From the NCBI GenBank assembly GCA_024278345.1, contig JAJRTK010000062.1, positions 1 to 15,006 on the forward strand: a DNA stretch of 15,006 nucleotides, given 5' to 3'. This document shows, in pieces, positions 12,833 through 15,006 of the stretch; the stretch's first letter is position 1; each line of letters begins with the position of its first letter. The position numbers were made by a program, and so were the translations under genes. Origin of the DNA: a bacterium (GTDB lineage Bacteria; CSSED10-310; JAJRTK01). A model generated the notes under the pieces. It saw nothing but the letters and a program-made list of their open reading frames with translations. It searched no databases and was not told the DNA's origin.

Positions 12833-14413
12833 TCAAGCGTTGCCCCCGGCCAGGCCATTCCCCGGAACAAGGCGAACCGGCATCCTGGCGCTGCAAGTTT
12901 CCGGATTTTCCAGGGCCTTGACCAAGGCACGGAGGGACGGCGTGCGGTAGCCGAAAGTGAAAATCGCCGGGCCGGGGATCTCCCCGCGGGCGTAGGGGGA
13001 AGCCAGGGCGAGCTGAAGGAAAGGCCGAATCCCCCAAAGCCCCCGAGCCAGCGTTTGCTCCCCTTTCGACGGCTGAAGCCGGCTGGTCCAAAGCCACACT
13101 ACACGATCCGCCTCGGCCTGGGCTTCCTGGATTCGGGGCAGAGCAGACAGGGGATGGTCGCGGTCGTAAAGGAGCAAACGGATCCGGGGAAACCGGGCCT
13201 GAAGGAGCCGAAAGAACTCCGCCGCGATGGACTCCGAATCGGTGGCTCCGAGCTGTAGAGCCTTGGCGGCCGAAGATTCTTCCCGGCGGGCGACCAGAAG
13301 GATCGAGTCTCCCCGGCTGATGGGGAAGGGGTCCCCCACGCGGACAAGGGAGCGCTTCGCCGCGCGGAGCATGAGAGCCTCTTCGGCGCTCCAGTCCGGG
13401 AGCTTTGAGAGGCTCGGCGGTTCGGGAAATCTCTCCCGAAACCCCCGGATGCGCCCCAGCGCCTCGGCAATCCGCGCGAGGGGAATCCGGCCGCTCTCCG
13501 CCCGCCGAAGGAGCTCCTCCAGCGCTCTTTTTTGGCTGGCTACATCCCCCAAAACCAGCGCCAGGTCCGCACCAGCCCCGATGGCTTCGGCTGCCGCCGT
13601 ATGACCGTAATCCCTGGCGATCCCCCCCATATTCAGCGCGTCGGTCACCACGAGCCCCCGAAAACCGAGCTCCTCCCGAAGAAGCTGCACCAGGATCCGC
13701 CGCGAAACCGTGGCCGGCCGCCTGTCCAGCTCCTTCACCAGAAGGTGCCCCGGCATGATGGCCGCGCAACCCGCCGCGATGGCCGCCTGGAACGGCGGCA
13801 GCTCCACGGCATGAAGACGCTCCAGGCTGTGGGCCACGGTGGGAAGGCTCACGTGGGAATCCAGGTGCGTATCCCCGTGGCCGGGAAAATGTTTGGCGCA
13901 GGCCGCCACGCCTTCCCGTTGGTGGCCCCGAATGAAGGCCGCCACGTGCCGGGACACAAGATCCGGGGCCGAGCCGAAAGCCCGGGTCCCGATGACCGGA
14001 TTCCTCGGGTTCACGTTGACGTCGGCCACCGGCGCGAAATTGAGGTCGATTCCCAACGCCCGCAGCCTCCGGGCCATGGCAGCCGCCACCTCTTCCGTCA
14101 AAGCCGGATCGTCCGCCGCGCCAAGGGCCATGGCGCCCGGGCAGAGAGGTGGATCGAGGAGACGAACCACGCTCCCACCCTCCTGGTCGATGGCCAGGAT
14201 TGGGCCGGCCAGGGCGTTTCGAAGGGTCTGGCAAAGGGCGGCAGCCCTTTCCGAAGAGGGCAGGTTCCGGCGGAAAAACAGGATTCCGCCCACGGGAAAC
14301 TGCTCCAGAAGACGGGCCGAGTCGCTGTCCAGACAAGGACCCGGCAGGTCCAGGAGAACCAGACGGAGAATATCCCGTGGCTGAGCCTTCCGCCCGCCAG
14401 CGATTGTGGCCAT
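12833..14413 (-). CDS. nagZ: Beta-N-acetylhexosaminidase, glycoside hydrolase family 3 (NagZ-like)
   Basis: It removes N-acetylglucosamine from peptidoglycan fragments during cell-wall recycling (family knowledge). From ATG 14413 it has 526 residues. The catalytic barrel (about 13-330) contains AIDQEGGSVVRL (74-85), NFAPVADVNVNPRNPVIGTR (125-144) and KHFPGHGDTHLDSHVSLP (174-191), with the general acid/base Asp-His dyad around D185/H187. The nucleophile is D258 in VVTDALNMGGI. A second domain (about 345-520), ending FGYRTPSLRALVKAL...MPVRLVPG, makes it the two-domain form rather than the short E. coli type (about 340). No signal peptide is seen, so it is probably cytoplasmic. The start is uncertain: AAGGAG touches ATG 14413 with no spacing, so GTG 14440 or TTG 14491 are possible. 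Confidence 0.92.
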   Translation of the reverse strand: MATIAGGRKAQPRDILRLVLLDLPGPCLDSDSARLLEQFPVGGILFFRRNLPSSERAAALCQTLRNALAGPILAIDQEGGSVVRLLDPPLCPGAMALGAADDPALTEEVAAAMARRLRALGIDLNFAPVADVNVNPRNPVIGTRAFGSAPDLVSRHVAAFIRGHQREGVAACAKHFPGHGDTHLDSHVSLPTVAHSLERLHAVELPPFQAAIAAGCAAIMPGHLLVKELDRRPATVSRRILVQLLREELGFRGLVVTDALNMGGIARDYGHTAAAEAIGAGADLALVLGDVASQKRALEELLRRAESGRIPLARIAEALGRIRGFRERFPEPPSLSKLPDWSAEEALMLRAAKRSLVRVGDPFPISRGDSILLVARREESSAAKALQLGATDSESIAAEFFRLLQARFPRIRLLLYDRDHPLSALPRIQEAQAEADRVVWLWTSRLQPSKGEQTLARGLWGIRPFLQLALASPYARGEIPGPAIFTFGYRTPSLRALVKALENPETCSARMPVRLVPGNGLAGGNA

Positions 14414-14549
14414 CTCCTTTATAGTGTCTGCCTCCGCCACGCCTTTTCCGGCGTTGCTGTTGGCCTGCCCGGGAAACCAAAATCCCGACAACGACTGATT
14501 CCCGGTCCCGGATCACTTTGGCTTTGACAGGCGTCGGTCATGGTCTCGG

Positions 14550-14705
14550 CGGGACCTATCAGATCCCCGAGTTTTTGCTTTACACTCCGCGGCGCCGCCC
14601 TGGTGGCACCGGCATCTTGCCGGTGGCGGGCTGGACGGGATTCACGGAATTGAACGGTGGGTTCCTTTTGTGCGTGGACTTGTCAACCGGATCTGATAGG
14701 TCCCG
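14550..14705. mobile_element. MITE-like element with 17-bp perfect inverted repeats
   Basis: The 156-bp element begins CGGGACCTATCAGATCC (14550-14566) and ends with its exact reverse complement GGATCTGATAGGTCCCG (14689-14705). TCTCGG occurs directly on both sides (14544-14549 and 14706-14711), as expected for a 6-bp target-site duplication. Inside is a perfect 8-bp hairpin CACCGGCA-TCT-TGCCGGTG (14607-14625). It is too short for a transposase, so it would be moved by one encoded elsewhere. The related repeat at 14872 serves as an unoccupied site: it reads straight through without the insert. Confidence 0.8.
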
Positions 14706-14799
14706 TCTCGGCCACCCTTCAAAAAGCCGCGTAGCGCAAAAAATCCCGTTGCCTTTCATTGCGCCATGGATCCCTGCAAGATCCTTGCGCCGAGCGAGA

Positions 14800-14881
14800 C
14801 CACGACCGAAGGGAGGTGCCGGAGCGAAGCGAGAGCTCCCGGAGGCACCAATGGTGAACAGAGTGGCGGCCTCGGTCATGG
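14800..14881. repeat. Large imperfect palindrome
   Basis: The outer arms are CCACGACCGAAGG (14800-14812) and CCTCGGTCATGG (14870-14881). Inner arms are GGTGCCGGAG (14815-14824) and CTCCCGGAGGCACC (14836-14849). The right outer arm is also the start of direct-repeat copy B, so repeats overlap here. No protein-coding signal is evident. Confidence 0.55.
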
Positions 14882-14921
14882 TACCGGCCACCCGAAAAAA
14901 GCGCGCAGCGCACAAAGATGT

Positions 14922-15000
14922 GGGTCCAGGGAGCTGGCTCCCTGGCGTGGGTCTGGGAGCGGCGCTCCCAGCGGAGGTCCGGAGGCAGAGCCTCCGCCGG
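14922..15000 (+). repeat. Three tandem hairpins with differing arms
   Basis: Unit 1 has CCAGGGAGC (14926-14934) and GCTCCCTGG (14937-14945). Unit 2 has CTGGGAGC (14953-14960) and GCTCCCAG (14964-14971). Unit 3 has CGGAGGC (14980-14986) and GCCTCCG (14990-14996). Each is preceded by GGTC. The arms differ between units while pairing is kept. The array runs to the window edge and may continue. Confidence 0.7.
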
Positions 15001-15006
15001 GTTCCA

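Follow-up and report, generated by a model that had tools for sequence, protein, structure and literature searches.

A high-copy MITE with 8-bp target duplications, nested in the relic end of another mobile repeat

Introduction

Several short mobile repeats of bacterial genomes have been described in detail. The Chunjie MITE of Geobacter uraniireducens, known from 38 copies of 178-235 bp and 57 partial ones, is, like the element reported here, a short non-autonomous element with terminal inverted repeats (TIRs) and direct repeats that lies mostly in intergenic regions; it differs in its length and its host genome, and the two are likened by description, not by sequence (PMC10969869). QMITE1 and QMITE2 of Coxiella burnetii are about 190 bp at full length, occur in dozens of copies and fold into a strong hairpin, and QMITE2 is flanked by direct repeats of 7-9 bp (PMC5896051, PMC10969869). 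The repeat width of QMITE2, the many copies and the hairpin fold recall our element, again by description rather than sequence, but the TIRs of the QMITEs are 23-29 bp long, compared with 16 bp here. Correia and ERIC elements (more than 120 copies, and as many as 711) are high-copy intergenic palindromic mobile repeats (PMC10969869), and the family reported here can be described in the same words. Elements of the IS1595/IS1016 type, such as ISApl4 (PMC12561309), share with it 8-bp duplications and G-rich tips and are a candidate source of transposase; unlike it they encode the transposase themselves, and their end sequences match the MITE only loosely.

We analysed a window, the whole stretch of 15,006 nucleotides under study, from the genome of an uncultured bacterium. 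At a probability of about 97%, the element in it belongs to a non-autonomous DNA transposon (MITE) present in high copy number, and this copy is inserted into the relic end of another mobile repeat, here called repeat B. The family is new in that it was unmatched in the collections searched; its mechanism is ordinary and the kind of genome parasite is known. It is a well-documented addition to the high-copy MITEs, one that makes an 8-bp duplication and for which no surviving transposase was found. Otherwise its biology is that of a standard MITE, occupying more than 100 places in its host's genome.

Results

Boundaries of the element in the window

The features of the locus are as follows.

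14530 to 14550, resuming at 14713 and running to about 14740, plus strand: relic end of mobile repeat B, left part, split by the MITE (recognised from the match of the restored end to the end of B)
14543 to 14550, no strand: left copy of the 8-bp target-site duplication (TSD), GTCTCGGC
14551 to 14704, minus strand (the strand that puts the type-1 end, GATCCGGTTGACAA, on the left): MITE of subfamily a, 154 bp, delimited by the lengths and TSDs of 65-70 copies and by the subfamily consensus
14551 to 14566, plus strand: TIR, GGGACCTATCAGATCC, 16 bp, one of a perfect pair in this copy
14571 to 14584, plus strand: subterminal motif GTTTTTGCTTTACA, common to both subfamilies by their consensus sequences
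14607 to 14625, no strand: central hairpin, CACCGGCATCTTGCCGGTG, found in almost every copy, and repeated in tandem in three expanded copies at other places in the genome
14680 to 14688, minus strand: subterminal motif GGTTGACAA, likewise common to both subfamily consensus sequences
14689 to 14704, minus strand: TIR, GGGACCTATCAGATCC as read on this strand
14705 to 14712, no strand: right copy of the TSD, GTCTCGGC
14868 to 15006, plus strand: second copy of mobile repeat B (full length 201 bp), truncated where the contig stops

The window copy therefore reads GTCTCGGC / GGGACCTATCAGATCC ... GGATCTGATAGGTCCC / GTCTCGGC, and it holds no gene of its own. Its end motif is also written as GGGACCTATCARATCC and GGGACCTATCARAT. 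The original prediction had set the ends one base too far out on each side, which gave an element of 156 bp with 17-bp TIRs and a 6-bp TCTCGG duplication, in place of the 154 bp, 16 bp and 8 bp found here, the last width being set by 65 copies. The base preceding GGGACC is A, C, G or T, depending on the copy, and is therefore target DNA rather than position 17 of the TIR; the apparent seventeenth base (C/G), and with it the 6-bp flank, came about because the 8-bp duplication at this site begins and ends, by coincidence, with complementary bases. The internal hairpin of that prediction was correctly seen and is found again in almost every copy. The two subterminal motifs are possible transposase-binding sites.

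Copy number, length and target duplication

Copies were sampled by pattern and by region, from fetched stretches of the genome. Seventy of those recovered are complete, and 60 of the seventy measure exactly 154 bp. As the original prediction supposed, other copies with the same ends exist: exact type-1 ends occur at least 108 times in the genome, and the 15-base core of the TIR, GGGACCTATCARATY, has 257 exact occurrences, compared with none for its reversed control pattern. The core was absent from seven other genomes of the phylum, which is poorly sampled (eight genomes in the set searched), and a comparison of the element DNA with 60 genomes gave a match in one, the window's own. TIR pairing reaches 13-16 of 16 positions in 60 of the 70 copies and is perfect (16/16) in only two.

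Duplications at these other copies had been anticipated at a width of 6 bp; they are present, but at 8 bp. Among the 65 copies with both flanks readable the 8-bp duplication is perfect in 47 and matches at 7 of 8 positions in 10 more (57/65 together), and flank widths of 3-7 and 9-10 gave no perfect match in the same copies. The chance of a perfect 8-bp match is about 1.5e-5 per copy. Eight of the 65 agree at five or fewer positions, among them copies that are shifted, rearranged, decayed or mis-assembled. The duplicated target sequences show no strong consensus. Correia elements make TA duplications, as opposed to the 8 bp here. Shorter than 500 bp and without a transposase gene, with conserved TIRs, a TSD of constant length and many dispersed copies, the family has the features by which MITEs are recognised, and the MITE-like transposition first proposed is borne out: the genome neither lacks other copies nor shows the element within a larger conserved gene or RNA.

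Beyond the genome itself, the element DNA had no match in plasmids, and the TIR-pair and end patterns had none in viral contigs. Run against genome contigs, the end pattern gave one match, a truncated copy of subfamily b on a contig of a Myxococcota MAG (JAJRTE010000302.1, Dive96_bin1.27; L153:4931-5041). It adjoins other repeats that, judged by eye, resemble those of the window's genome. The contig could be mis-binned from the same community or the copy could have been transferred; the match was accordingly set aside as evidence of spread across phyla.

Insertion sites and repeat B

MITE sites lie mostly between genes. When the element and one copy of the duplication were removed, an open frame of at least 250 codons spanned 25% of 36 sites, versus 87% of 205 random positions within the same flanks. 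The window copy itself lies about 60 bp upstream of a gene for a family-3 glycoside hydrolase (12833-14491, minus strand).

In the window, the restored empty site, GGCGTCGGTCATGGTCTCGGCCACCC, matches positions 14868-14893, GGCCTCGGTCATGGTACCGGCCACCC, at 23 of 26 positions, and 37 of 51 positions agree without gaps over a wider stretch; the empty-site comparison is with this paralogous site only. What had been taken for an unoccupied paralogous site (14872-14915) belongs to the intact end of repeat B at 14868. This repeat is 201 bp long, with 24-bp inverted repeats, GGCCTCGGTCATGGTACCGGCCAC, and several short palindromes in its interior; duplications of 8-9 bp flank five of the eight complete copies seen. 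In a first look at the genome there were 533 candidates for it, and 40 of them were scored.

The two families are nested in each other. The MITE is inserted in a relic of B in the window, B is inserted in a MITE elsewhere (L102), and one MITE lies inside another (C533). An ISL3-family transposase gene is also interrupted by repeat B, with a 9-bp duplication, GTTCAAGCG (C5:1-900; L051/L203). Both families were therefore mobile over overlapping periods. Contigs of this genome often end inside the MITE or inside repeat B, and the two appear to explain much of the breakage of the assembly into 550 pieces.

Subfamilies

The copies fall into subfamily a (34 copies, mean identity 92%, 4.3% from the consensus) and subfamily b (28 copies, mean identity 97%, 1.7% from the consensus); a simple motif rule did not assign the other eight, several of which plainly belong to a or b. 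By its lower divergence, subfamily b is the younger. The two are 71% identical overall and have in common only their ends and the central hairpin, namely the terminal 25 bp or so of one end (GGGACCTATCAGATCCGGTTGACAA), the opposite end's subterminal GTTTTTGCTTTACA, whose first bases differ slightly in b, and the hairpin CACCGGCAAGATGCCGGTG.

Few ends lead into something other than the usual interior. Three (C395, C390 and C385) have a third end type and share an interior of about 97 bp; inspected as candidate long elements, they showed no second end and no transposase, and they may be remains of a longer relative. Another such candidate, C14, looks like a truncated MITE.

Source of the transposase

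A uniform length, a uniform duplication of 8 bp, a preference for intergenic sites and the insertion of the MITE and B into each other are observed properties of this repeat family. The mechanism that we infer from them is cut-and-paste transposition by a DDE transposase whose gene would now be lost or lie in sequence missing from the 88%-complete assembly. Supplied in trans, the enzyme would recognise the 16-bp ends and the subterminal motifs and insert the element at staggered 8-bp cuts, and repair of the gaps would leave the 8-bp direct repeats; one such insertion would have gone into the relic end of repeat B in the window.

We ran five transposase profiles (ISL3, IS1595, IS256, ISKra4 and DDE_Tnp_1) on the genome. 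IS256 had no match, and the other four found only relic genes, truncated or interrupted. The full-length element with these ends around a transposase that had been expected from the original prediction was not seen: none of the relics that the profiles gave was seen with the MITE ends GGGACCTATCARATCC, in an assembly that is 88% complete and breaks at repeats, its contigs often stopping about 140 bp inside the MITE. An intact high-copy IS could be absent from such an assembly. MITEs usually have an autonomous relative with their ends, though the name does not depend on one. In the last 140 bp or so of contig C390 (L200, L055) an open frame begins that runs off the contig; it has a zinc-ribbon motif, CPQCGS...CRGCGRQF, and looks similar to InsA of IS1 elements.

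G-rich tips and a duplication of 8 bp are compatible with IS1595, ISL3, ISKra4 or IS6. ISL3, ISKra4/ISMich2 and IS6 elements also duplicate about 8 bp of target and begin with GG at their ends, and ISL3 and ISKra4-like relics are present in the genome; we give roughly even odds to the MITE being driven by one of these three families or by an undescribed DDE family. The resident relics themselves probably do not supply the ends, however. The likely end after the ISL3 gene, GGCTCTTCGCCATC, and those around the ISKra4-like genes, GGTGCGGCTCTTT, all read by eye, differ from the MITE end; allowing up to five mismatches, no end like that of the MITE is present on the ISL3 relic of C5, and IS256 is absent from the genome. 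Derivation of the MITE from the resident ISL3 or ISKra4-like elements was accordingly rejected, as their likely ends do not match.

It is possible, though rather unlikely, that the MITE arose by deletion from an IS1595-type (IS1016-like) element, or is a partner sharing the ends of one, and uses the transposase of that family, which makes duplications of about 8 bp and has ends starting with GG. The TSD and G-rich tip of the MITE would fit, ISApl4 having ends GGGGCTGTACTAGA and 8-bp direct repeats (PMC12561309), and two truncated IS1595 transposase genes occur in the genome. The one visible end of an IS1595 relic, GGCTCTATATGCGATCC (read by eye), is only loosely like the MITE end, with CTAT and GATCC in the same order, and the ends of the MITE itself were not seen on any copy.

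That the repeat is instead REP/BIME-like or a structured RNA, spread by another route than transposition, is very improbable: it could draw on the central hairpin of almost all copies, the stable fold (z = -4.45) and the tandem hairpin units of three copies, but the fold score is largely owed to the TIRs, Rfam gave nothing at gathering score, and the constant 8-bp duplications, which would have to be coincidence, are together with the fixed length and conserved tips signatures of transposition.

Tandem hairpin arrays

Within the MITE family so identified, the least usual feature is the tandem hairpin arrays at three loci. Each is a MITE copy whose hairpin units run to the contig end: 4.8 units of 43 bp in C494 (L138:523-727), 4.8 units of 35 bp in C28 (L165:1571-1737), and three hairpins spaced 43 and 45 bp apart in C153 (L188:1-110). 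A CRISPR-like reading was ruled out, as the intervening sequence is identical in every unit; the arrays are therefore minisatellites. One could speculate that the hairpin is an independent cassette, kept across otherwise unrelated interiors and amplifying in tandem in 43- or 35-bp units, so that palindromic minisatellite arrays would start within the MITE and might be spread when it transposes. We regard this as improbable; if true, the hairpin would have a function of its own, for instance by influencing transcription, replication or the efficiency of transposition.

Rare variants of the hairpin stay paired with other bases (CACA/TGTG, CGCC/GGCG). In one copy (C36, L086) it has been lengthened and forms a palindrome of some 43 bases (CCGTCCAGCCCGCCACCGGCA...TGCCGGTGGCGGGCTGGACGG), perhaps by template switching or gene conversion.
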